DNA of 64,000 nt from contig JAJQDT010000133.1 in the NCBI GenBank assembly GCA_021202075.1, positions 1 to 64,000 on the forward strand. Reading direction: 5' to 3'. Made by a program: the position numbers and the translations under genes. The notes below the pieces were generated by a model. The model saw only the letters and a program-made list of their open reading frames with translations, did no database searches and was not told the origin of the DNA. Origin of the DNA: Lachnospiraceae bacterium (GTDB lineage Bacteria > Bacillota > Clostridia > Lachnospirales > Lachnospiraceae). Shown here piece after piece: positions 4,256 to 52,131 of this stretch; within the stretch, counting starts at the first letter, position 1, and every line of letters begins with the position of its first letter.

Positions 4256-4291
4256 CAACAGAATTGGTTGAATAATTCACGATACCGTGAT

Positions 4292-4377
4292 ACAATGAAA
4301 GCCGCGCAATTAAAAATCGCTTCGCGATTGGCGCGGCTTTCGTCCATACTCGCTGTGCGAGTACGGACATAATACAA
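4292..4377 (+). repeat. palindromic repeat family A, copy 1
   Basis: Two adjacent hairpins: AAAGCCGCGC...GCGCGGCTTT enclosing AATCGCTTCGCGATT, then GTCCATACTCGC...GCGAGTACGGAC. The same two-hairpin unit recurs at 40179-40260, partly at 40259-40311, and within a coding gene at 40366-40446. Here it stands between a terminator and the DUF4160 gene. Confidence 0.85.
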
Positions 4378-18519: not shown

Positions 18520-18563
18520 CGGGCTGCGTCGAGGCTTTTATGGTATGCGATTCGCGTGTCAGG
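18520..18563 (-). repeat. repeat family D, partial copy
   Basis: CGGGCTGCGTCGAGGCTTTT and the following bases are the reverse complement of 45648-45692 with few differences by eye. It lies directly behind the membrane-protein stop codon. Confidence 0.65.
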
Positions 18564-18931
18564 CGATGCTGGATCATAAGTGATTTCTGTACAGGTCCTG
18601 AATATGAGAACGAATATTATATGGGGGATATCCCACGCTTTGCAGGGGATATTCCCCGTAACCTGCGAAGAGACGAACAACTGCAGGGATACCATATACC
18701 GGGGACAGAGGATACCGCAGCGTTCCCGTTGATGCGGCCTGATTCATCAGGTGGTAAATCACGCCAGATTGTTACAGGAAAATAATCGAAATTGCGCAAT
18801 CTATGGTTGAAAATGAGCACAATATAGAGCGGCGTAGTAGTATAATCTGTATAGCAAATGCGGAAAAAACAAAAAAAAATATACAAATTAACCAGAAATT
18901 TGCTTTTCCGCATAGAATAGGAGGCTATATA
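18564..18931. other. intergenic region before the sugar importer
   Basis: No gene seen. It contains GC-rich hairpins near 18620-18670 (GGGGATATCCC; GCAGGGGATATTCCCC), the palindrome ATTGCGCAAT at 18791-18800, and a TATAAT at 18841-18846 without a good -35 box, compatible with activator-dependent transcription of the importer. AGGAGG at 18919-18926 serves the next gene. Confidence 0.4.
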
Positions 18932-20242
18932 ATGAACAGAAAATTACTAGCAGTTTTACTCTCAGGCGCAATGGTTTGCTCCCTGGGCGCTTCTTTGACA
19001 GTAAGCGCGGACGAAAGTGACAGCCATACACTTACTGTGTATGCATGGGACGCTTCTTTCAACATCCCGGCACTTGAGGCGGCGGCTCTGGATTATCAGA
19101 CCAATGTGGATCCGGACTTTGTACTGGACATCGTAGAGCAGTCCGGTTCATCCGACATTGAGACTTTGATCACGAACGTTGCTTCCGCTGGCGAGAGCGC
19201 ATATGATCAGCTCCCGGATATCGTTCTTTTCCAGGATCATTATTTTGAGCAGTACCTGAGCAACTACCCGGATGTATGGCAGAACGTAGACGACGCTGAC
19301 ATCGTATGGGACAATTTCGCAGAGGAAAAGCTTTCCTTCTCCACGATTGACGGCGTTCATTACGGCGTACCGGTAGACGGCGGCACCTGCATCGCGGCTT
19401 ACAGAGTGGATCTTCTGGAAGAAGCGGGCTACACGATTGACGACCTGACCGGTATCACATGGTCTGAGTTCATCGAGATCGGCGAAGCGGTTTACAACGC
19501 GACCGGCAAGTATCTCCTTTGCTTCAACTCCGACGGCAATGACCTGATCTACATCATGCTTCAGGAAGAGGGCGTTTCCCAGTTCCAGGACGGCGAGCCG
19601 TACATCGCTGAGAATGAGACTCTCGTTGAAGTAGTGAATTTGATCGTAGAGATGGTACAGCGCAATGTCCTGAGCCTTTCCAACAGCTGGGATGATTACA
19701 CCAATACCCAGATCCAGGGCGATCAGGTCGCGGGCGTGATCAACGGAAACTGGATCATCCCGACCATTCAGAACGTTACGGACAACGAAGGACTGTGGGA
19801 GATCACCTCTCTTCCGAGTCTCACCGGCGAGGAAGGCTATGCTTCCAACGGCGGTTCCTCCCTGTACATCACGGCAAATTGCGCGGATGTTGACCTCGCG
19901 AAGGACTTCCTTGCATACACCTTCGGCGGCGGCTCCTATGAGGAGACCGGCACATCCATCACCTATGACAACGCTCTGACCGACGGCGGCGTGGTTACTA
20001 CATACGCTCCGGCAGGCGAATCGGATGTTTATTCACAGGGTGTTGCTTACTGGAATGATACGGCTATCTATCAGCAGATCGCAGCGATGACCTCTGAGGT
20101 TATCCCGGTGGAGCAGAGCGCTTATCATTACACCGCACGTGAGTATCTTGGTGCAGCGATCATCAATATCCTCAATGGTTCTGATACCGAGAGCGAGCTT
20201 GCGAGCGCAGAAGAGCAGATCCGCTTCGCGATGGGACTGTAA
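18932..20242 (+). CDS. sugar ABC transporter substrate-binding protein
   Basis: A 436-residue extracellular-solute-binding protein, family 1. A Sec signal peptide (residues 1-25, ending VSA-DE) is present; the Cys in GAMVC is not in a good lipobox, so lipid attachment is uncertain. The mature part (LTVYAWDASF, then LPDIVLFQDHYFEQYL, YGVPVDGGTCIAAYRVDLL) is typical of oligosaccharide binders. Ligand unknown, but nearby galactanase, beta-galactosidase and galT suggest galacto-oligosaccharides. The two permeases follow; no ATPase gene is present, so a shared MsmK-type ATPase is expected. Confidence 0.9.
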   Translation: MNRKLLAVLLSGAMVCSLGASLTVSADESDSHTLTVYAWDASFNIPALEAAALDYQTNVDPDFVLDIVEQSGSSDIETLITNVASAGESAYDQLPDIVLFQDHYFEQYLSNYPDVWQNVDDADIVWDNFAEEKLSFSTIDGVHYGVPVDGGTCIAAYRVDLLEEAGYTIDDLTGITWSEFIEIGEAVYNATGKYLLCFNSDGNDLIYIMLQEEGVSQFQDGEPYIAENETLVEVVNLIVEMVQRNVLSLSNSWDDYTNTQIQGDQVAGVINGNWIIPTIQNVTDNEGLWEITSLPSLTGEEGYASNGGSSLYITANCADVDLAKDFLAYTFGGGSYEETGTSITYDNALTDGGVVTTYAPAGESDVYSQGVAYWNDTAIYQQIAAMTSEVIPVEQSAYHYTAREYLGAAIINILNGSDTESELASAEEQIRFAMGL

Positions 20243-20385
20243 TCCGTTTCGGATCCTGATGCGGCGATGTGCTTTCAGCGGAACGCCGCTCCTGCGCTAT
20301 GTATCGTAACGACGTGTACATACATTATGCATAAGCTGCTATGATACATGATACGGTCTGCGAAAGAGAACGAGAGGAGGCAGTA

Positions 20386-20452
20386 CCCCCTCGCTGTGCA
20401 TCGGCGGCAGATCGCGTCGGTCATGAGGAGAACGCTTCGCGTTGGAACGGCG
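20386..20452 (+). repeat. palindromic repeat family B, copy 1
   Basis: Begins CCCCCTCGC and contains a hairpin with AACGC TTC GCGTT at its tip. The same unit, nearly identical, is at 31512-31579, and inside the beta-galactosidase gene at 24155-24221. Here it sits in the spacer between the binding protein and the first permease; this copy is the most diverged of the three. Confidence 0.85.
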
Positions 20453-20507
20453 CTGGCGCATGATCTTTCGGGAATACAGTATCAGAAATATGGTTTCAGA
20501 AATGATA

Positions 20508-20534: not shown

Positions 20535-20638
20535 ATTCTTGGTTTTTACTGGTTTGTTTTTGCAGACAGGCAAAATCATTTGGGTGATTTCCAGCGCGCC
20601 TGCCGGTGCGGCCTGTGACAAAAGGAGGGAAACTTGCT

Positions 20639-21538
20639 TTGAAAAAAAAGAAGAGATTTGGCCTGCTGACAAAGCAGTCCATTGCCGGATGGATCTGGCT
20701 GACCCCGGCGACCGTTTTGATTGCGATCATGAGCTTTTATCCCATGGTTCAGGCGTTCATCACATCCCTGAAGACAGGGTCGAGCGCCAATATGTCGTGG
20801 GCTGAGCCGATTCTTTATAACTACACGCGCATGTTTAAGGATCAGACGTTCATGCGCTCTGTGGGGAATACTTTCTTCTATCTGATCATTCAGGTGCCGA
20901 TCATGCTGATCCTGGCCATGCTGCTCGCTCAGCTGCTGAACAACAAAGACCTGAAATTCAGAGGCATTTTCCGTACCTGCGTATTCCTTCCGTGCGCGAT
21001 GTCACTGGTTTCCTATTCCGTTATCTTTAAGTCCCTGTTCGCGACAGAAGGACTGATCAATACCGTTCTTGTGAATCTTCATATTCTGGAGACCGGCTAC
21101 AATTTCCTGGGAAATTCCGGCAGCGCGAAGATCATTATCATTGTAGCGCTGATCTGGAGATGGACCGGCTACAACATGGTATTTTTCCTCGCCGGCCTGC
21201 AGACGATTGAATATTCGGTCTACGAGGCGGCAAAGATTGACGGCGCGAGCTCCTGGAAAACGTTCTGGGGCATCACCGTGCCGCTTTTGAGGCCGACCAT
21301 TGTCATGACGGCGATCATGTCGATCAACGGTACGCTGCAGCTGTTCGACGAGTCGGTCAACCTGACGAACGGCGGTCCGGCATTCAGTACGATTACCATG
21401 TCGCATTACATTTATAACAACGCGTTTGGTACCGGTGTGGCGAACTTCGGCTATGCTTCGGCAATGTCGTTCTTCATATTTATCCTCGTGGCAATCCTGT
21501 CCATGATCCAGATGAAAGTAGGTGATACACGTGACTAA
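20639..21538 (+). CDS. sugar ABC transporter permease (MalF type)
   Basis: About 299 residues with six predicted membrane spans and the permease EAA motif (EAAKIDGASSWKTFWGITVP). The start is taken as TTG at 20639 because AAAGGAGGG lies 9 bases upstream and the lysine-rich N-terminus follows; a GTG at 20606 is the alternative. It overlaps the next permease by 8 bases. Confidence 0.88.
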   Translation: MKKKKRFGLLTKQSIAGWIWLTPATVLIAIMSFYPMVQAFITSLKTGSSANMSWAEPILYNYTRMFKDQTFMRSVGNTFFYLIIQVPIMLILAMLLAQLLNNKDLKFRGIFRTCVFLPCAMSLVSYSVIFKSLFATEGLINTVLVNLHILETGYNFLGNSGSAKIIIIVALIWRWTGYNMVFFLAGLQTIEYSVYEAAKIDGASSWKTFWGITVPLLRPTIVMTAIMSINGTLQLFDESVNLTNGGPAFSTITMSHYIYNNAFGTGVANFGYASAMSFFIFILVAILSMIQMKVGDTRD

Positions 21539-22537: not shown

Positions 22538-22575
22538 GGCGGCACAGGATGCACAGGTTATTTCGTAATCGTTCC
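22538..22575 (-). repeat. repeat family D, end fragment
   Basis: GATGCACAGGTTATTTCGT matches the reverse complement of the start of the copy at 45617-45692. Confidence 0.65.
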
Positions 22576-22604
22576 TTATACGGGTAATCATGATAAGTAT
22601 GAAT

Positions 22605-23555: not shown

Positions 23556-23689
23556 AAGGCCGTTTTGACAACTTGTAAATACTGGAATCGTCGATATAAA
23601 TCAGAGAAGACTGGCAGCTCATATGAAATTCCATAAGCCGCATTATGCGCATATATTTACGATGCGGTCTGTCAGAGGGAGGAGACAAA

Positions 23690-26600
23690 ATGGCAGAGTT
23701 TGATTACAATAAGGTGAAGGATCCCCGCTTTTTCAGCGAGAATCGCCTGGAGGCGCATTCCGACCATGTTTTTTATGCTTCGCATCAGGAAGCAGATACC
23801 GGAAGAAACAGTCTGGTGTGCTCTTTGAATGGATTCTGGAAGTTTTCTTACGCGAGAAATTATAAAAACACGATAAAGGATTTCTGGAAGGCGACGGATG
23901 ATTCGGCGGATGGTTCGGCAGTTGCGCCGATGGCGGCGGATGGTTCGGCGGACGCGCCAAAGGCGACGGGGGATTTGGCAGCGCCCGGAATCCGGGGGCA
24001 GGAAGGTGACAAATCCGCCGCAGGAAATGCGGCATCGTGTGATTGCAGAAGCTGGGAGGAGATTCGCGTACCGGCGCATATCCAGATGGAAGGGTATGAT
24101 GCGTGCCAGTACGTGAACACGCAGTATCCGTGGGACGGGCGGGAGGAGGTAGTGCCCCCTCGCTTCGCATCGGCGGCAGAACGCGCCGGTCATGAGAAGA
24201 ACGCTCCGCGTTGGACCGGCGGAATTCCGGAGGACTTTAATCCGGTGGGGAGCTATGTGAAGTATTTTATGCTTCCTGCCGATATGGCGGGGAAGCGCGT
24301 GTTTGTCTCCTTCCAGGGAGCGGAGAGCGGGTTGGCCGTCTGGCTGAATGGCCATTACCTCGGCTACAGTGAGGACAGCTTTACACCGTCGGAGTTTGAA
24401 CTGACGGAATATATAAATGAAAATGGGGAAAATAAGCTGGCTGCGCAGGTGTTTAAATGGACGTCGGGCAGCTGGTGCGAGGATCAGGACTTTTTCCGGT
24501 TCTTCGGCATTTACCGGGATGTTTATCTGTATGCGGTTCCGAAGGTGCACGCGCAGGATATCTGTGTGCGTACGGATTTGGATGATGAGTACAGAGACGC
24601 GGATCTGAGGGTTCGCCTGAAGGTCTGGGGCAGCGGAGGTGTGCGGCTGAGCCTGAAGGACGGGGATGAGACAATTGCATCGGCGGGCGGAGCGGCTGTC
24701 GATGCGGCGACAGGTACAGATGCAGAAAGGACATCTGCCGGTGCGTGGGCAGATACCGCATCGGGTAATCCTGCAGCGGACGGTTTGACGGCGGATCCGG
24801 CAGCAGACACTGCAGGGGGTAATCCTGCAGCGGATGGTTTGGCGGCAGGTACAGCCGCAGGCGCTACGGTTGCCGGTTCGGGAATTGGCGCGGAGACCAG
24901 GATGGAGCTGACCATGCACGTGGCAGCCCCGAAGCTGTGGAGTGCGGAGCATCCGAACCTTTATACACTCTGGATTGAGATGCTGGACGAGGCAGGTGCG
25001 GTTGTGGAGGTGATCCGCCAGATGGTCGGCTTCCGCTGCTTTGAGATGAAGGACGGGATGATGCACCTGAACGGAAAGCGGATTGTCTTTAAGGGTGTGA
25101 ACCGCCATGATTTCAGCTCGAAGAACGGGCGGGCGGTGACGGCTGAGGAGACGGAGCAGGATATCATCACGATGAAGCGGAACAATATCAACGCGATCCG
25201 CACCAGCCATTATCCGAACCATTCGTTTTTATATGATCTGTGCGACCGGTATGGACTTTACATGATTGATGAAACCAATCTGGAATCCCACGGGACCTGG
25301 TGCGCGTATTTACAGGGTACGGTCGGTCTGGATTATGTGGTTCCGGGCGACCACGAGGAGTGGCTTGGCGCGATGCTGGAACGCTCGAATTCGATGCTGC
25401 AGCGCGATAAAAATCATCCATCCATCCTGATCTGGTCCTGCGGCAATGAGTCGTTTGGCGGCAGGGTTATCTATGAGATGTCGCAGCTGTTCCGCCGGCT
25501 GGATCCGACGCGGCTGGTTCATTACGAGGGGGTTTTTAATGACCGCCGTTATAATGATACGAGCGACATGGAAAGCCAGATGTATACGCCTGCGGAGAAC
25601 ATACGCGAATTTCTGAAAAATGACCGCAGCAAGCCGTTTATCTGCTGTGAATATATGCATGCGATGGGAAATTCCTGCGGCGGGATGCAGAAATATACTG
25701 ATATGACGGAGGATGAGCCGCTTTACCAGGGCGGATTTATCTGGGATTATATTGACCAGTCTATCACGAAAAAGGACCGGTATGGGCAGCCGTTCGAGGC
25801 TTATGGCGGCGATTTTGACGACCGGCCGAGCGACTATAATTTCAGCGGGAACGGCATTGCCTATGGAGGCGACCGGGGCGAATCTCCCAAGATGCAGACG
25901 GTGAAATTCCATTATCAGAATATTCGCGTTTTCCCGTCTGAAACGCAGGTGCGGGTGAAGAACCTCAGCCTGTTTACGGATACGGCGGAGTATGAGTGCG
26001 TGGTGCAGCTTCAAAAGGACGGACAGATGATCAGAGAAAACCGCATGGAGGCTTCCGTGCCGCCGCTCTCGGAGAAGACCTTTGATCTGCCGGAGGAGCT
26101 GCTGCGCAAGACCGGTTATTTTTCCGGTTCTTCGCCTTCGCATGCAGCATGCACGTCTGCAGACGGCTCTGTTGTAGCATGTGGAAACGGTCAGACGCCT
26201 TTTGACGGCTCCGTTGCGGAATGTGGAAACGGCCAGGCGTTTTTTGATGGTTTCACAGAGGGAAGCAGTAATAGAGGTGCGCTTTCCTGCGAATATACCA
26301 TCACGGTGTCCTTCCGCCTGAGAGAGGACACACGGTGGGCAAAACGAGGCCATGAGGTGGCATTTGGTCAGTATGTGTACGGACATTGTGAATACGCAAG
26401 GCTGGGGAGGCCCGCATATGCGGCGTCCATGTCAGACTGCTGCCGGATTTCGGATCATACCATCCGGCTGGCAGCGCGTGTGCCGGGAGCAGATGCGGCT
26501 CTTCGGCCGATATCTGCGAGGGAGCAGGAAATGTCCGCACTGTCTCGAACAGTGACGGATACACCGGAGCCATCTGCGCCATTCCAACCGTCGAAGAATG

Positions 26601-27679
26601 AGACTGCTGCGTATGGATGCGCGGAAGGAGTGCCGGGCGAACTGGCCGGTCTTGCGATCATCCGCGGCCAGGACAACTTTGGGGTGCGCGGCTCTCATTT
26701 TGAGGTACTGTTTTCAAACACGATTGGTCTGACCTCCTATCGGGTCGGCGGGAAGGAAATGCTGAAATCCGGCCCGCGTCCGGACTTCTGGCGCGCCCTG
26801 ACGGATAATGACAATGGAGCGGGCGCGGCGGTGCGGTACGGGCAGTGGAAGCTGGCGAGCCTGTACGCGATGGTGAAAAACCCGACCGAATCTGGTTTTC
26901 CGCCAAAAAATCCGCTGCAGTGGGAAGTGGTGACGCTGCCCTGCGATAAAAACCGGCTGAATCAGTCTGAAAAGCAGTTCGAAAAGCGATATGAAAAGCA
27001 GTCTGAAAAGCGGCCGGGAGAAACGGATCCGGCGGTGCAATGCGTGATCGTTCGCTATACGTACTGGCTTCCGATGACGCCGCTGGCGTCATGCGATATG
27101 GAGTATGCGATCTTTGAAGATGGTACGATTCAGGTGCATCTGCATTATAACCCAGTCGAGGGGCTTTCTGAGATGCCGTTATTTGGCGTATCCATGAAGC
27201 TGGATGCGGATTATGACCGGATTGAGTGGTACGGGCTCGGCCCGCAGGAGACTTACTGCGACCGCGAAGGCGGGGCAAAGCTGGGCATTTATCAGAGCAC
27301 GGTGCGTGAGAGCATGGCAAGGTATCTGGTGCCGCAGGAGTGCGGCAACAAGTCCGGCGTTCGCTGGGCAAAAGTAACGGACGCGCGCGATCGCGGCCTG
27401 CTGTTCTGGGATGGGGCGGCGCTGGCGGAATCCGTGCCCGCGCATTCCGGGGCGGTTTCCTCCGGCATGGAATTTTCTGCGATGCCATATACCGCCCATG
27501 AACTGGACAATGCACTCCATGCGTATGAGCTGCCGCAGGTACATTACACGGTCGTCCGCGCCGCGCTTGGGCAGATGGGCGTCGCCGGAGATAATTCCTG
27601 GGGGGCGCGTCCGCATGAGGAATATCTGCTGCGCGCAGATCGCCCGCTGGACTTCACGTTCTGCTTCCGGGGGATCTGA
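23690..27679 (+). CDS. lacZ: GH2 beta-galactosidase (LacZ type) with many in-frame insertions
   Basis: A 1329-residue enzyme, some 300 residues longer than typical LacZ. Order: sugar-binding domain (LNGFWKFSYARNYK...FVSFQGAESGLAVWLNGHYLGYSEDSF), immunoglobulin-like domain, TIM barrel with acid/base E587 (CGNESFGG) and nucleophile E654 (CCEYMHAMGNS), and the C-terminal small chain (WYGLGPQETYCDREGG). The excess lies in low-complexity loops near 23893-24045, 24670-24895, 26140-26275, 26500-26645 and 26965-27040, plus a copy of palindromic family B at 24155-24221. GGGAGGAG precedes the ATG. Catalytic residues are kept, so it is probably active. Cytoplasmic; releases galactose for GalT. Confidence 0.93.
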   Translation: MAEFDYNKVKDPRFFSENRLEAHSDHVFYASHQEADTGRNSLVCSLNGFWKFSYARNYKNTIKDFWKATDDSADGSAVAPMAADGSADAPKATGDLAAPGIRGQEGDKSAAGNAASCDCRSWEEIRVPAHIQMEGYDACQYVNTQYPWDGREEVVPPRFASAAERAGHEKNAPRWTGGIPEDFNPVGSYVKYFMLPADMAGKRVFVSFQGAESGLAVWLNGHYLGYSEDSFTPSEFELTEYINENGENKLAAQVFKWTSGSWCEDQDFFRFFGIYRDVYLYAVPKVHAQDICVRTDLDDEYRDADLRVRLKVWGSGGVRLSLKDGDETIASAGGAAVDAATGTDAERTSAGAWADTASGNPAADGLTADPAADTAGGNPAADGLAAGTAAGATVAGSGIGAETRMELTMHVAAPKLWSAEHPNLYTLWIEMLDEAGAVVEVIRQMVGFRCFEMKDGMMHLNGKRIVFKGVNRHDFSSKNGRAVTAEETEQDIITMKRNNINAIRTSHYPNHSFLYDLCDRYGLYMIDETNLESHGTWCAYLQGTVGLDYVVPGDHEEWLGAMLERSNSMLQRDKNHPSILIWSCGNESFGGRVIYEMSQLFRRLDPTRLVHYEGVFNDRRYNDTSDMESQMYTPAENIREFLKNDRSKPFICCEYMHAMGNSCGGMQKYTDMTEDEPLYQGGFIWDYIDQSITKKDRYGQPFEAYGGDFDDRPSDYNFSGNGIAYGGDRGESPKMQTVKFHYQNIRVFPSETQVRVKNLSLFTDTAEYECVVQLQKDGQMIRENRMEASVPPLSEKTFDLPEELLRKTGYFSGSSPSHAACTSADGSVVACGNGQTPFDGSVAECGNGQAFFDGFTEGSSNRGALSCEYTITVSFRLREDTRWAKRGHEVAFGQYVYGHCEYARLGRPAYAASMSDCCRISDHTIRLAARVPGADAALRPISAREQEMSALSRTVTDTPEPSAPFQPSKNETAAYGCAEGVPGELAGLAIIRGQDNFGVRGSHFEVLFSNTIGLTSYRVGGKEMLKSGPRPDFWRALTDNDNGAGAAVRYGQWKLASLYAMVKNPTESGFPPKNPLQWEVVTLPCDKNRLNQSEKQFEKRYEKQSEKRPGETDPAVQCVIVRYTYWLPMTPLASCDMEYAIFEDGTIQVHLHYNPVEGLSEMPLFGVSMKLDADYDRIEWYGLGPQETYCDREGGAKLGIYQSTVRESMARYLVPQECGNKSGVRWAKVTDARDRGLLFWDGAALAESVPAHSGAVSSGMEFSAMPYTAHELDNALHAYELPQVHYTVVRAALGQMGVAGDNSWGARPHEEYLLRADRPLDFTFCFRGI
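24155..24221 (+). repeat. palindromic repeat family B, copy 2, inside lacZ
   Basis: By eye this differs at only two of 67 positions from the intergenic copy at 31512-31579. It is read in frame and encodes roughly PRFASAAERAGHEKNAPRW, located between the conserved segments QYPWDGREE and DFNPVGSYVKYF. Confidence 0.9.
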
Positions 27680-29967: not shown

Positions 29968-30909
29968 ATGAAAATGAGCAGAGTATATGACAGCATTACG
30001 GAACTGATTGGCGGTACGCCGCTTTTGAACCTGCACCGGTTCGCGGAGGAGAAGGGGCTGGAGGCGACGCTTCTGGCGAAGCTCGAGTACCTGAACCCGG
30101 CCGGGAGCGTGAAGGATCGGATTGCGAAGTCCATGATCGAGGATGCAGAGGAAAAGGGACTGCTCCGGGAGGGCAGCACGATCATCGAGCCGACCTCCGG
30201 AAATACCGGCATTGGCCTGGCGGCGATCGCGGCGTCAAAGGGGTACCGGGTGATCCTGACCATGCCGGAGACGATGAGTGTCGAGCGGCGGAATATCCTG
30301 AAAGCGTACGGAGCCGAGGTGGTGCTGACGGACGGCCTGAAAGGGATGAAGGGCGCGATTGAGAAGGCGTCGCAGCTCGCAGAAGAAATTGAGGGCAGCT
30401 TTATCCCGGAGCAGTTTGAGAATCCGGCGAACCCGGCGGAGCACCGGCGCTCGACCGGCCCGGAGATCTGGAGAGATACGGACGGACAGGTCGATATTTT
30501 TGTCGCGGGAGTCGGCACCGGCGGGACGATCACTGGCGTCGGGGAATATCTGAAATCACAGAACCCGGACATCCGCGTTGTGGCGGTGGAGCCGTCCACC
30601 TCGCCGGTTCTTTCGGGCGGAAAGCCCGGCGCGCACAAGATTCAGGGAATCGGCGCGGGGTTTGTGCCGGGAACGCTGAATACAGATGTTTATGACGAAA
30701 TCCTTCCGATTGAAAATGAGGACTGCTTTGAAATGGCCAAAGCGCTGGGAAAGACAGAAGGAATCCTGACCGGCATTTCCTCCGGAGCGGCGCTGTGCGC
30801 GGCGGTTCAGCTGGCGAAGCGTCCGGAGAATAAGGGGAAGACCATCGTGGCGTTGCTGCCGGATGGCGGCGACCGCTACTATTCGACGCCGCTGTACATG
30901 GGAAAGTGA
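29968..30909 (+). CDS. cysK: cysteine synthase A (O-acetylserine sulfhydrylase)
   Basis: A 313-residue PLP enzyme. The PLP lysine is in [11 protein letters not shown], the substrate loop is PTSGNTGIG and the phosphate-binding loop [10 protein letters not shown]. It makes cysteine from O-acetylserine and sulfide. ATG at 29968 and 29974 are both possible. A CymR-like regulator gene follows 154 bases downstream. Confidence 0.95.
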
Positions 30910-31063
30910 AAGGATAAAATGCCACAGGGTAAACGCGAGAGGCTGTCAGACTACATTTCTGCAGGGAAAATGGGAAGAACGATTTTTGTACAAAATGTCG
31001 GGTTGTCCCCAGGCAGTTTTCGCGTGGATCAGGCATGTGAACAAAGGAACAGGGAAAACAATC

Positions 31064-31489
31064 ATGAAAATTTCATCAAAGGGGCGGTATGCGCTGCGTC
31101 TGATGCTGGATCTGGCCATCAATGATTCCGGGGAGCCGATCCGACTGAAGGACGCGGCCCGCAGGCAGAATATTTCCGAAAAATATCTGGAGCAGATTAT
31201 AGCGATTTTGAACCGGGCCGGATACGTGAAAAGTGTTCGCGGCCCCCAGGGCGGCTATGTGCTGACGAACCGTCCGTCCGAATATACCGCCGGTATGATT
31301 CTGCGGCTCACGGAGGGTAGCCTTACCCCGGTGGAATACGCCGAGGACGGCTCCGATGGCGAGGCGGACTGTGCGACATCGATTCTCTGGGATCGTCTGA
31401 ACGACGCCATCAATGATGTCGTCGATCATGTGACGCTGGAAAATCTGCTCGAATGGCAGATGGCGAAAGCAAATTCGTATGTCATTTAA
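31064..31489 (+). CDS. Rrf2 family regulator, CymR-like
   Basis: A 141-residue Rrf2 protein: winged helix with KISSKGRYALRLMLDLA, recognition region RRQNISEKYLEQIIAIL, and GPQGGYVL wing. It has a single cysteine in the region where IscR has three iron-sulfur ligands, as in CymR, the cysteine-metabolism repressor that works with CysK in Firmicutes. Its place behind cysK supports this, but direct function is inferred. Confidence 0.87.
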   Translation: MKISSKGRYALRLMLDLAINDSGEPIRLKDAARRQNISEKYLEQIIAILNRAGYVKSVRGPQGGYVLTNRPSEYTAGMILRLTEGSLTPVEYAEDGSDGEADCATSILWDRLNDAINDVVDHVTLENLLEWQMAKANSYVI

Positions 31490-31511
31490 AGAACTGTTGC
31501 GAGAGGTAACG

Positions 31512-31579
31512 CCCCCTCGCTTCGCGTCGGCGGCAGAACGCGCCGGTCATGAGAAGAACGCTTCGCGTTGGACCGGCGC
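31512..31579 (+). repeat. palindromic repeat family B, copy 3
   Basis: Near-identical to the copy inside lacZ. Contains CGCCGGTC...GACCGGCG as outer stem and AACGC/GCGTT as inner stem. It is in the 3' region of the Rrf2 gene before its terminator and is directly followed by a family D copy. Confidence 0.88.
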
Positions 31580-31580
31580 T

Positions 31581-31645
31581 AATAACCTGTGTATCTTGTA
31601 CCGCCGGGCATGAGAATCACAGACGATAAAAGGCTTGACGTGCGG
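31581..31645 (+). repeat. repeat family D, diverged copy
   Basis: AATAACCTGTGTATCTTGTACCGCC and the following bases parallel the copy at 45617-45692 with more mismatches. It adjoins the family B copy without a gap. Confidence 0.5.
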
Positions 31646-35729: not shown

Positions 35730-36758
35730 ATGATTAAAACAGTTGGAATCGTAGGACTGGGCGCGCTGGGCGTGCTCTATGGGAGCCTGCTGCTGGAGAA
35801 AATGGACCGGGATGACCTGCTGATCATCGCGGATGAGGAGCGCATCCGCCGGTATCAGGCGGAAGGGGTATATGCAAACGGAAAGAGGTGCGATTTCCGC
35901 TATGCGGCGCCCGGCGAAGGGCATAACCCGGCGGGGGCAGCTTGCGGTGCTGATGAAGAAAACGATGCGCGGCTAGGCGGTGCTGATGAAGAAAACGATG
36001 CGCGGCTAGGCGGCGCTGAGGAAGAAATCACTGCGCATTTGGGCGGCGCTCCGGTGGATCTGCTTATTTTTACCACCAAATACATGGCGCTGGCGGAAGC
36101 GGCGAAGATGGCGCGCCCTTTTTGCGGGGAGCGGACCATCGTGATGTCGTTTTTAAATGGGGTGTCCTCGGAGCAGGTGCTTGAGGAGATACTGAAGCCA
36201 AAGCGGCTGCTGTATTCCTGTGTACAGGGAATGGACGCGACCAGAAAAGACCGGCAGGTCACATACAGCAAATCGGGCTATATCGCGTTTGGTGAAAAGG
36301 ACTCTTCCCGGAGCCAGACGGTTTGCGAGGTGGAGGAGTTCCTGAACCGGGTCGGCCTGGCGTATCAGGTGCCGGAGGATATCCGCCGCCAGATTTACAG
36401 CAAGTGGATGCTGAATGTGGGAGTCAACCAGACCTGTGCGGTTTTTGACGTGGATTATGAGGGCGTGCAGAAACCAGGGAAACTCAGAGATATCATGGTG
36501 ACGGCCATGGAAGAGGCCAGAAGTGTCGCTGCTGCGGAGGGAATTCTGCTGACTGAGGAAGAACTGTGGTACTGGGTGGATGTCATCGACGGCCTCTCCC
36601 CCAACGGTCAGCCTTCCATGCGGCAGGATACTCTGGCCGGGAGGCCGACGGAGGTGGAGCTGTTTGCCGGGACTATATGCGCCATGGGACGCAAACACGG
36701 CATTTCCGTTCCGCAAAACGAGGAGTTTTACCGGCTGCTGAATGCTGCTGAAAAGTGA
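35730..36758 (+). CDS. 2-dehydropantoate 2-reductase-like protein with internal repeat
   Basis: A 342-residue ketopantoate-reductase family protein: NAD(P)-binding GIVGLGALGVLYG at the N-terminus, FTTKYMALAEAAKMARP and FLNGVSSEQVLEE in the middle, and the C-terminal helical domain (IYSKWMLNVGVNQTCAVF). Reduces 2-dehydropantoate in pantothenate synthesis, or acts on a related keto acid. Residues about 70-105 contain three copies of ADEENDARLGG encoded by a 33-base tandem repeat (35943-36045), an insertion between strands of the Rossmann domain. GGAGAGG is upstream. Confidence 0.87.
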   Translation: MIKTVGIVGLGALGVLYGSLLLEKMDRDDLLIIADEERIRRYQAEGVYANGKRCDFRYAAPGEGHNPAGAACGADEENDARLGGADEENDARLGGAEEEITAHLGGAPVDLLIFTTKYMALAEAAKMARPFCGERTIVMSFLNGVSSEQVLEEILKPKRLLYSCVQGMDATRKDRQVTYSKSGYIAFGEKDSSRSQTVCEVEEFLNRVGLAYQVPEDIRRQIYSKWMLNVGVNQTCAVFDVDYEGVQKPGKLRDIMVTAMEEARSVAAAEGILLTEEELWYWVDVIDGLSPNGQPSMRQDTLAGRPTEVELFAGTICAMGRKHGISVPQNEEFYRLLNAAEK

Positions 36759-40123: not shown

Positions 40124-40311
40124 TCAGACATGGAGAGGCAGGTATGGAACGACCTGCTTCTCTTTCCACATATGTGATGCAATGAGAGCCGCGTAATGGA
40201 AAATCGCTTCGCGATTAACGCGGCCTTCGTCCATATCCGCTTTGCGGATACGGACATACAATGAGAGCCGCGCAATGGAGAATCGGAACATTCTTCGCGT
40301 AAGGCGCGGCA
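40124..40311 (+). repeat. cluster of palindromic repeats (family A copies 2 and 3 and a related hairpin)
   Basis: A hairpin GAGGCAGGT...ACCTGCTTCTC (40134-40165) with TTTCCACATATGT is followed by family A copy 2 (40179-40260) and partial copy 3 (40259-40311). Copy 2 matches copy 1 at 4292-4377 closely in both stems. A fourth copy continues into the next gene. The TTTCCACATATGT tail also ends the insertion in the ATPase gene at 42626-42700. Confidence 0.85.
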
Positions 40312-42244: not shown

Positions 42245-42268
42245 TGTAAATGGAAAGGCAATGTGAAA

Positions 42269-43141
42269 ATGGATTTATTAAATATAAACGATATTTCCGT
42301 ATTTTATGGAAAAAATCCAAAGCCTACGATTGAGCATTTCAGTCTTGATATGAAAGAAGGAGAGGTTGTCAGTATCGTAGGAGAGAGCGGAAGCGGCAAG
42401 ACGACGGTCATCCGGGCGGTGCTTGGACTTCTTCCGGGCGGCGGAAGTGTGCGGCAGGGCGATATCCTGTTTCAGGGAAATTCCCTGCTAAAGCTGAACA
42501 AGACGCAGTGGAGGAATCTTCGCGGTTCAGACATTTCCATGATCTTTCAGGATTCCGGAGCGATGATCAACCCGATCCGCCGGATCGGCGATCAGTTTGT
42601 GGAATATATTCGCACTCATCAGAAGTGCCGCCGTTCGCGAAGCGAATCAGCATCGGCGGCACGACCTGCCTCCGAGCAAAGCGAGGTGGCGTTTCCACAT
42701 ATGTCAAAAAAGGATGCCTGGGCAAAGGGTGTTGAAATGCTGGAGAAGATGCGGCTGCCGGATGGCGATAACATCATGAGAAGCTATCCGTTCCAGCTTT
42801 CGGGCGGTATGAGACAGCGTGTTGGCATCGCTATGGCAATGACGTTTCAGCCAAAGCTTTTGCTGGCGGATGAGCCGACGAGCGCCCTGGATGTGACGAC
42901 ACAGGCGCAGATTGTCCGGCAGTTCATGGAGCTCCGCGACGAATATGGAACGTCAATGATCGTAGTCACTCACAACATCGGTGTGGCGGCCTATATGGCA
43001 GATCAGCTGATTGTAATGCAGCATGGAAAGGTCGTAGACGCCGGAAGCCGGGAATCGGTGATGAGTCATCCAAACGACGACTACACCAGGAATCTGCTGG
43101 CGGCTGTGCCGGAACTGGAGGGAAAACGTTATGTCTCATGA
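42269..43141 (+). CDS. ABC transporter ATPase (OppD/NikD type) with inserted palindromic sequence
   Basis: A 290-residue ATPase: Walker A GESGSGKTT, Q-loop MIFQDSG, signature LSGGMRQRVGIAMA, Walker B LLLADEPTSALD, and H-loop VVTHN. Between RTHQK and MSKKDAWAKG a stretch of 25 codons (42626-42700; CRRSRSESASAARPASEQSE and on) is inserted. It is made of hairpin DNA resembling the repeat cluster at 40124. Removing it restores the usual family sequence. A GTG at 42263 is an alternative start. Overlaps the next gene by 11 bases. Confidence 0.9.
   Translation: MDLLNINDISVFYGKNPKPTIEHFSLDMKEGEVVSIVGESGSGKTTVIRAVLGLLPGGGSVRQGDILFQGNSLLKLNKTQWRNLRGSDISMIFQDSGAMINPIRRIGDQFVEYIRTHQKCRRSRSESASAARPASEQSEVAFPHMSKKDAWAKGVEMLEKMRLPDGDNIMRSYPFQLSGGMRQRVGIAMAMTFQPKLLLADEPTSALDVTTQAQIVRQFMELRDEYGTSMIVVTHNIGVAAYMADQLIVMQHGKVVDAGSRESVMSHPNDDYTRNLLAAVPELEGKRYVS
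42626..42700 (+). repeat. palindromic insertion inside the ATPase gene
   Basis: Two hairpins: TGCCGCCG TTCGCGAAGCGAA CGGCGGCA and CCTC CGAGCAAAGC GAGG. Exactly 75 bases, so the frame is kept. It ends in TTTCCACAT, shared with the intergenic repeat at 40124-40176. Confidence 0.8.
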
Positions 43142-45369: not shown

Positions 45370-45616
45370 TATAGGCGGAAAGAGGCTTATAACGCAGAGG
45401 ATATCTGCTGTTTATAAGATAGACATTTTATGAAGAAAGAATCGGTGGAACGAACAGGAAAGGAGGGCAGTGTTTCTGTGAGGACTGTAAGCAGGTCAAA
45501 ATGTTTGCAGTGGCAAAACAGAATCCTGTATGGGCAAAGAACCATGCAGGATTCCTCGCAGAAGGGGAGGCTCTGTGGATGTGAATGGAAAACGGCAGAA
45601 TTATACTTAGGATCTG

Positions 45617-45692
45617 TCACGAAATAACCTGTGCATCTTGCGCCGCTTAATGCGCGAATCGCAGTTCATAAAAGCCTCGGACGCAGCCCGGG
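45617..45692 (+). repeat. repeat family D, longest copy
   Basis: A 76-base unit beginning TCACGAAATAACCTGTGCATC and ending GGACGCAGCCCGGG. Parts recur at 18520-18563 and 22538-22575 in reverse orientation and at 31581-31645 in diverged form. It stands just before the MATE gene. Confidence 0.7.
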
Positions 45693-50409: not shown

Positions 50410-52131
50410 TCAGAATAAGCTGTATAACTGTGTCAGCGGCAGTGTCTGCGCGGGCTTTGACTCGAGCTTCACGCCGTCTGCGCAGACCTCATATGTTTCT
50501 GGATCTACGGTGATCTCGGGGGTCGCGTCGTTGTATTTCATATCCTTTTTCCCAATGTTTCTGCAGTTCCTTACAGGAACCACTGTTTTTTGCAGGCCGT
50601 ACTGCTCCTTTACGTGGTTATCCATTGCGGCCTGGGAGACAAAGGTCAGGCAGCTCTCATATTTGGCCGCTCCATGCGCCGCAAACATTGGCTGGTAAAG
50701 TACCGGCTGTGTGGTCGGAATGGAGGCATTCGCGTCGCCCATCTTGGACGCGATGATCATACCGCCCTTGATGATCATGTCCGGCTTCGTGGCGAAGAAT
50801 GCAGGATTCCAGAGCACCAGATCCGCGAATTTGCCAACCTCTACAGAGCCGACGTAGTCCGCGATGCCGCAGGTAATGGCCGGATTGATCGTATATTTGG
50901 CCACATAACGCTTTGCACGGAAGTTGTCGTTGCCGTTTTCCTTATCTACTCCAAGCGGACCGCGTTCTTCCTTCATTTTGTGGGCGGTCTGCCAGGTTCT
51001 GGTGATGACCTCTGCCGGACGCCCCATGGCCTGCGAATCCGAGCTCATCATAGAGAAAACGCCCATATCGTGCAGCACATCCTCTGCCGCGATAGTCTCC
51101 GGACGGATCCGGGAATCCGCAAAGGCCACATCCTCCGGGATGTTTTTGTCCAGATGGTGGCAGACCATCAGCATATCGAGATGTTCATCCAGCGTGTTGA
51201 CTGTGAAAGGCATCGTCGGGTTCGTGGAGGAAGGCAGTACATTTTTCGCGCCGGCCGCGCGGATGATGTCCGGCGCATGTCCGCCGCCTGCACCCTCGGT
51301 GTGGAACGTATGGATCGTACGTCCTCCGATGGCATTCAGAGTATCCTCTACACATCCCGCCTCGTTCAGCGTATCCGTATGAATCGCCACCGGAATGTCA
51401 TATTCATCGGCAACATTCAGGCAGTGGTTGATCGCAGCCGGAGTGGAACCGAAGTCCTCGTGAATTTTCATTCCCATGGCGCCGGCTTTTACCTGCTCAA
51501 TGATGGGCTTCTCATCCGAACAGTTTCCTTTTCCGTAAAAGCCCAGATTCATCGGATATTCTTCGGCCGCCTTTAACATCATCCGGAGATTCCAGGGACC
51601 CGGCGTACAGGTGGTGGCGTTTGTGCCGTCTGCCGGCCCGGTGCCGCCTCCGATCATTGTCGTGATGCCGGAATACAGGGAGGTCGGAACCTGCTGCGGG
51701 CAGATAAAATGAATATGGCTGTCAATGCCGCCGGCAGTCACGATCAGTCCCTCGCCGGCCAGAGCCTCCGTAGAAGCACCGATTGTCATACCGGGAGTCA
51801 CGCCGTCCATGACATTGGGATTGCCGGCCTTGCCGATCCCGGCGATTTTTCCGTCCTTGATGCCGATATCCGCCTTGATGATGCCGGTATAATCCAGAAT
51901 CAGGCAGTTGGTAATTACCAGATCCAGATCTCCGTCCTTGCTGCAGGTCTTTACGGACTGCCCCATGCCGTCGCGGATCGTCTTTCCGCCGCCGAACTTG
52001 GACTCGTCGCCATATGTGGTATAGTCTTTTTCTACTTCTATGATCAGATTGGTGTCTGCCAGACGTACCTTGTCCCCGACGGTAGGGCCGTACATCATTG
52101 CATACTTTTCACCGGAAATTCTGTAGCTCAT
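50410..52131 (-). CDS. ureC: urease alpha subunit
   Basis: A 573-residue catalytic subunit. The nickel-bridging carbamylated lysine is in [12 protein letters not shown]; metal and active-site histidines are in [20 protein letters not shown] and [14 protein letters not shown]; the mobile flap is [20 protein letters not shown]. Hydrolyses urea to ammonia and carbamate. AAGGAGGAG precedes the ATG. Confidence 0.98.

Follow-up and report, generated by a model that had tools for sequence, protein, structure and literature searches.

The window, that is, the whole stretch of DNA that was analyzed, comprises 64,000 nucleotides (positions 1 to 64,000) of contig JAJQDT010000133.1 from a Lachnospiraceae bacterium. 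It carries a lacZ gene with a short palindromic repeat in frame inside it, and further copies of this repeat lie in the surrounding DNA (Table 1). The repeat unit is a double hairpin of 73 to 77 nt and matches the Rfam family RF02987, "GA-cis RNA." Two of the window copies, the intact intergenic one and the one in the ABC-transporter ATPase gene, pass the RF02987 gathering score of 34.7, while the lacZ copy and the decayed intergenic copy score below it. The gene ahead of the intact copy we take to be of the Rrf2 type, and the decayed copy sits between genes 18803-20242 and 20606-21538, presumably encoding a solute-binding protein and a permease. The fourth copy is read from the opposite repeat strand compared with the lacZ copy, and the ABC_tran match of its host protein (30-213) covers the insert at residues 126-152. 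When folding was compared with that of shuffled sequences, the intact intergenic copy folded better (z of -2.15 and -1.74 for the two strands). The lacZ copy (z of -0.29 on the gene strand and -0.94 on the other) and the decayed copy (stretch at 20378, z of +1.64) did not; an earlier, sequence-only reading had pointed out three copies, and two of them thus folded no better than shuffles.

Table 1. Coordinates of lacZ, the ABC-transporter ATPase frame, and the repeat copies in the window
Feature	Position	Strand	Basis
lacZ, GH2 beta-galactosidase	23645..27679	+	1344 aa; open frame, Pfam GH2 domains, orthologous loci
GA-cis-type copy in lacZ	24144..24226	- (Rfam model strand; lacZ on the opposite strand)	RF02987, 31.7 bits
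Intergenic copy, hairpin intact	31501..31583	-	RF02987, 43.3 bits; behind gene 30863-31489
Decayed intergenic copy	20375..20457	-	RF02987, 22.5 bits, E 0.054 (own-genome search)
Fourth copy, in frame in ABC-transporter ATPase gene	42620..42700	+	RF02987, 50.4 bits
ABC-transporter ATPase open frame	42245..43138	+	298 aa stop to stop; carries the 42620 copy

The sequence-only reading had noted a 67-base unit in lacZ that recurs almost unchanged behind the Rrf2-type gene and again further upstream. Positions 24155-24221 and 31512-31578 indeed differ at 2 of 67 bases, and the third copy, at 20386-20452, differs from the lacZ copy at 7 of 67; the repeat was thus recognized correctly, but its length was not, the unit being the 73 to 77 nt given above. 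As had also been stated, the lacZ frame reads across the copy without a stop, with EEVVPPRFASAAERAGHEKNAPRWTGG as the predicted in-frame peptide, and the catalytic residues are intact: the GNE and CEYMHAMGNS stretches, which we take to be the sites of the two catalytic glutamates, are present and can be aligned to the solved beta-galactosidase 6sd0_A. We collected orthologous loci (80 kept of 406 found), in which the start of lacZ corresponds to the codon at 23690. The product of 1344 aa is longer than the short orthologues (about 1010 to 1060 aa). A predicted structure of a 696-residue part with the insert, made from 19 sequences, was poor (mean pLDDT of 51.3, pTM of 0.43). The gene additionally holds tandem repeats at 24749-24856, 23904-23963, and 26153-26236 (54, 30, and 42 nt, respectively) that are missing from the short orthologues, and in relatives such stretches partly resemble decayed GA-cis peptides (EEKNAAHCAAA).

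Other repeats and features were seen elsewhere in the window. A second family of twin-hairpin repeats with CGCTTCGCG-type tips occurs at 4287-4371, 40174-40258, and 40256-40285 (two copies are 85% alike), and it gave no Rfam match over the cut-off in the window. Rfam 5_ureB_sRNA matched 51681-51973 (124.6 bits) antisense to the open frame 50410-52131, presumably urease alpha; this match is probably coding similarity and not an sRNA. Three tandem units of 33 nt occupy 35944-36042; units one and two are identical and end in TAG, and unit three has diverged.

The whole-genome search showed that the repeat is not limited to the three places first named. In the bacterium's own genome (5.55 Mb; a draft of 173 contigs with an estimated contamination of 5.46%), blastn with a 77-base query matched 45 places, and the RF02987 model gave at least 75 matches at an E value of ≤0.1, at least 60 of them over the cut-off; both model counts are lower bounds because 150 of the 472 candidates were scored. 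We catalogued 68 of these 75 matches. The seven omitted were weak or partial (E values of 0.014 to 0.066), and the equally weak copy at 20375 was retained as one of those named in the sequence-only reading. Of the 47 genomes examined from the genus, the bacterium's own among them, 24 had GA-cis matches, with up to 62 per genome. Elsewhere in the order, matches were found in 4 of 245 other genomes (1 to 5 each, with at most 17 candidates scored per genome), under stricter filters that can miss copies, and none of 14 control genomes had a match over the RF02987 cut-off. Against these controls, the blastn hits and model matches of the own genome exceed what chance would produce. In G068 and G069, near-identical copies at four loci (L127, L128, L145, and L146) lie within a larger repeat, with stretches of ~160 to 240 bp in common; two of the four are near contig ends, and L127 and L128 show the same composite in opposite orientation with the same flanks. 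This arrangement suggests a composite element that may be recently active or inverting.

Comparing the 68 copies side by side in the lacZ orientation, we found that hairpin 1 has the form (N)GGAAACGCCCCCTCGC-tip-GCTCGGCGGCAG and is followed by hairpin 2, RTCG-X-CATNNNA-AACGCTTCGCGTT-X'-CT, where X is a stem of about 8 to 9 bases that varies between copies while matching changes keep the pairing. RNAalifold, applied to 37 chosen copies (27 from the own genome and 10 from other genomes), found 20 pairs, of which 12 had changes on both sides, and 11 of these 12 are in hairpin 2. Three copies in contig C153 have identical X stems and unlike flanks; thus, X is part of the element and not of the site, and the possibility that X is copied from the insertion site is ruled out. 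Copies close to one another tended to share X: among pairs within 15 kb, 6 of 27 agreed at 10 or more of 11 X' arm bases, versus 35 of 2,247 other pairs (permutation mean of 0.49, P = 0.0005). Identical X arms were found on different contigs as well. Copies also occur in tandem and as solo halves, and the solo halves keep the frame too.

Many copies are inside genes. An open frame whose flanks looked coding on either side surrounded 32 of the 68 catalogued copies. The same rule classed as coding 368 of 600 positions drawn at random from the window, and it accepted 0 of 204 copies whose flanks had been shuffled. Copies are thus found in genes at a somewhat lower rate than such random positions (P = 0.03), yet they are often there. 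The host genes include those for PheT, phosphoglucomutase, RecD2, CobW, a P-type ATPase, and lacZ. We ran Pfam on 30 open frames (29 genes) holding 31 of the 32 coding copies, the + frame at C66:12681 being omitted, and every one of the 30 had a match at an E value of ≤1e-4, some under the curated cut-off. In 16 genes the insert falls within one domain match or between two. The former group consists of CobW, the ABC ATPase, a beta-lactamase-fold hydrolase, a solute-binding protein, an AAA-ATPase-like protein, and the P-type ATPase. The latter comprises three AAA/PD-(D/E)XK proteins, MatE-HATPase, acyl-ACP thioesterase, RecD2, a C39 ABC exporter, an EF-G-like GTPase, PheT, and CMD-cupin (in one of the 16 genes, L164, the second domain is below its cut-off). 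For 13 other genes, including lacZ and phosphoglucomutase, the Pfam coordinates alone do not decide where the insert is placed.

The copies in genes favor one reading frame. When the list was read by eye, 20 of the 32 coding copies were in the lacZ orientation, 18 of these 20 in a single frame (binomial P = 2e-7), and their commonest predicted peptide was the polar ETPPRxxSAAxRAxxxxNAxRxxGA or a shorter form of it. The other 12 were read from the opposite strand, with all three frames used. Each of the six frames is stop-free in 56 to 94% of copies. The length of the core, measured from GAAACG to the last CT, is divisible by three in 28 of the 32 coding copies and in 24 of 36 others, the remaining 12 noncoding copies departing from this. 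With one copy counted per X arm, the figures are 20 of 24 (P = 7e-7) and 21 of 31 (P = 9e-5), respectively. Because the copies are related, P values computed over them, that for the reading frame included, are too good. Since selection in genes enforces lengths of three, only the figure from outside genes is telling; there, threes may reflect a lineage that often passed through genes, or a chance gap of 3 nt between the length classes of 72 and 75. Copies from other genomes were coding in 19 of 35 cases, a biased sample whose loci were chosen by repeat similarity or best score. The length in multiples of three and the stop-free frames together mean that insertion into a gene often adds 24 to 26 residues without ending the protein. 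The repeat is in frame in dozens of genes because whole codons are usually added, often with no stop.

Alleles lacking the insert were found in relatives for lacZ and for five other genes, the comparison being between species and not strains. For the five genes, 46 of the loci fetched were compared. A 78-nt insert in PheT is present in G000, G015, and G031, with 8 of 10 compared loci empty and 2 filled. Phosphoglucomutase has 75 nt in G000, and 12 of 13 loci are empty while G021 has 36 extra nt; likewise, the 75-nt insert of CobW meets 7 empty loci of 8, G021 having 30 extra nt. The 75-nt insert of the window ABC ATPase is missing from all 7 compared relatives, and the RecD2 insert, of 72 and not 75 nt, from all 8. 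At the lacZ site of the window, which was judged in 16 of the 80 loci (the other 64 fell outside the strict pattern), 9 loci are empty and 7 have something longer. Relatives also carry inserts elsewhere in lacZ. Locus L033 has a clean 78-nt insert at a different place, GGTT^AAGG, that is missing in L035, L037, L038, L040, L031, and L034; its flanks are 93 to 97% identical to those of L035. More inserts lie within lacZ of L037 and L036. The sequence-only reading had proposed movement between intergenic and coding places, and the empty sites, together with the at least 60 genomic matches, bear this out.

That the movement was recent, as had been claimed, could be upheld for part of the copies. 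Synteny between locus L031 and the window extends over window positions of about 16.6 to 35.6 kb, most pieces having 82 to 92% identity, and L031 is without both intergenic copies (31501 and 20375); these copies are therefore younger than the L031 split, or they were lost in L031. At the lacZ site, L031, L032, L036, and L043 hold diverged inserts, and L034 has a copy of 38.7 bits. Because the site is occupied in related species, either the lacZ insertion dates further back or insertions hit this site more than once, and recent movement is doubtful there.

A further question is whether transposition took place at all. Nearby places might instead have exchanged sequence, by gene conversion or by slippage in replication, to give the lacZ copy and its two neighbors, the wide spread itself being old. 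The X stem common to near copies and the tandem arrays fit such a process, as do two lacZ loci: L037 has half of hairpin 2 plus a whole unit and L040 the half only, a pattern that suggests the remnant expected from recombination between repeated halves, again in whole codons. However, some copies with the same X arm lie on separate contigs and clean insertions are found in unrelated genes, and we regard exchange without transposition as unlikely to account for these copies.

The junctions gave some indication of how the element is inserted. Terminal inverted repeats and target duplications made by a DDE transposase are the hallmark of MITEs, and the repeat has neither complementary ends nor a duplication signal of that kind. 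Among 62 copies, the two ends, compared as inverted repeats, matched on average at 3.87 of 12 places versus 3.92 after re-pairing, and among 67 copies the mean best flank match was 4.78 versus 4.57 for re-paired flanks, which revealed no long target duplications. At the best junctions, judged by eye (both L033 sites, PheT, CobW, phosphoglucomutase, and nested copies in C114 and C40), the insert can be read as the element with a single A or G duplicated, although a blunt insertion of 75 or 78 nt would look the same. In a test for such a one-base duplication, which left out 7 of the 68 copies with an unclear end or flank as well as ten tandem copies, the relevant position pair was the second best of 36 tried (P = 0.04). 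Three copies nested in an outer repeat add 78, 77, and 78 nt compared with other copies of that repeat. A dispersed repeat of the form ..CGCGAATCGCAG..CATAAAAGCCTCG is present in the window at 18530-18574, 22539-22576, and 45609-45679, and GA-cis copies are nested at the same point of it (CGAA^TCGC) at C40:152953, C114:130884, and C19:93890.

Palindromic units that leave no target duplication bring to mind REP-like elements whose mover is a Y1 tyrosine (RAYT or IS200-type) transposase, and in-frame REPs within genes are known, according to the available part of PMC3733652. The own genome has 3 Y1_Tnp matches. Across the 47 genus genomes, however, Y1_Tnp was found in 14 of 24 with GA-cis and in 11 of 23 without (P = 0.56), and restricting the comparison to genomes with at least 8 copies gave a lean toward a link that was not significant (12 of 18 versus 13 of the 29 others, P = 0.23). 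Y1_Tnp was absent from five genomes that hold 23 to 55 matches, with the reservation that draft genomes may miss genes, and the repeat core was in 0 of 8 fetched Y1_Tnp loci, all of them from other genomes. Given the nonsignificant association, we set the Y1 transposase aside as the mover and judge this origin to be quite improbable; no mover was found.

The name GA-cis implies a leader position just upstream of a same-strand gene, and the family was reportedly described in a 2017 paper. In the literature searched, the family appeared in one relevant paper, as a table entry in the available part. The repeat could thus be a structured RNA that acts on its neighboring gene, the copies in genes being chance overlaps or miscalled frames. 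The Rfam match and the strong covariation of pairs agree with this, and at 7 of 8 loci in the four genomes outside the genus the motif lies on the strand of the gene, 13 to 41 nt ahead of an RBS-like site and a start codon. In the own genome, on the other hand, 2 of the 36 noncoding copies hold a leader position and 5 of 36 do so on the other strand, and whole-codon inserts occur in conserved genes in both orientations while relatives have empty alleles. These empty sites largely refute a purely cis-acting role for the own genome, and we consider it very unlikely. Hairpin 1 of the outside loci is near-identical to that of the mobile copies in 3 of 8 cases (L339, L343, and L340) and different in 5; we infer that these three motifs and the mobile copies may be homologous. 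The leaders L339, L341, L343, and L344 contain stretches resembling GGAGG..ATGAC..AGTCATGA, so that the first hairpin holds an RBS-like site and, possibly, an open frame of very few codons.

Overall, the repeat is best explained, with a probability of roughly 0.85, as a nonautonomous mobile palindromic element that matches Rfam GA-cis and acts as a nearly frame-neutral cassette. It inserts cleanly, with a target duplication of at most about 1 nt and a gain of mostly 75 or 78 nt. Even outside genes most copies have a length divisible by three, which, with the stop-poor frames, often permits life in coding sequence. After insertion, copies decay, or exist in tandem or as solo halves. Its hairpins, clean junctions, and local sharing of X point to single-stranded, mostly local copying; thus, the element may move by the copying of a folded single strand that prefers nearby sites. 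The inserted peptides would be tolerated, as loops or linkers, and not useful. A more tentative extension, possible but doubtful, takes the cis-regulatory leader RNA and a selfish palindrome that codes for protein to be two stages of one element. Other genera of the family would have kept GA-cis as a leader in few copies, and in this genus it would have become mobile and left the regulatory place; the evolved length and stop-poor sequence would then allow it to live within proteins, with polar, alanine-rich insertions enlarging their hosts, lacZ among them. The odds of this two-stage reading are lowered because hairpin 1 is common to only 3 of 8 leader loci, and the reverse order, in which a mobile palindrome was domesticated to serve as a leader, agrees with the data just as well.

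Compared with RF02987 as catalogued, the repeat has two hairpins in the same order; it differs in that the Rfam type is an sRNA gene, whereas the repeat of the own genome is dispersed, in both orientations, and often in genes. In RNA screens, as far as the available sources describe them, multicopy motifs are classed as mobile repeats, and our results warn that an Rfam RNA family can be a mobile element within coding sequence in one clade. In the literature searched, with most subscription papers beyond reach, in-frame palindromes in Lachnospiraceae were absent. Palindromes in proteins are best known from Rickettsia, with further MITE and REP cases, and the present repeat extends them to another phylum. 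In the accessible parts of PMC10969869 and PMC2229807, the Rickettsia palindromic elements are described as lying between and within genes and as being translated in frame in conserved proteins; they are 105 to 146 bp long with terminal inverted repeats (PMC2229807). Our repeat is likewise palindromic and in frame in unrelated conserved genes, but it measures 73 to 77 nt, has two hairpins and noncomplementary ends, and belongs to Lachnospiraceae, the two being likened by description and not by sequence. GTAG and CGTC REP elements are small palindromes, some of them within genes, in several other bacteria, as stated in the part of PMC3733652 available to us, in whose main text the words Firmicutes and Clostridi- are missing; our repeat is also a small palindrome and partly in genes, though it has no significant link to Y1 transposases. 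The Correia/NEMIS, ERIC, RUP, and YPAL MITEs, several of which fuse in frame with genes according to the accessible part of PMC2229807, resemble it in being nonautonomous, many-copy, and hairpin-forming, whereas the ends of our repeat are not complementary and its target duplication is at most about 1 nt. Because empty sites and remnants are present and many related genomes are available, one can follow step by step how peptide insertions in conserved enzymes arise, spread, and decay. In-frame palindromes were known elsewhere, and the Lachnospiraceae system described here adds an unusual tie to a catalogued RNA family.
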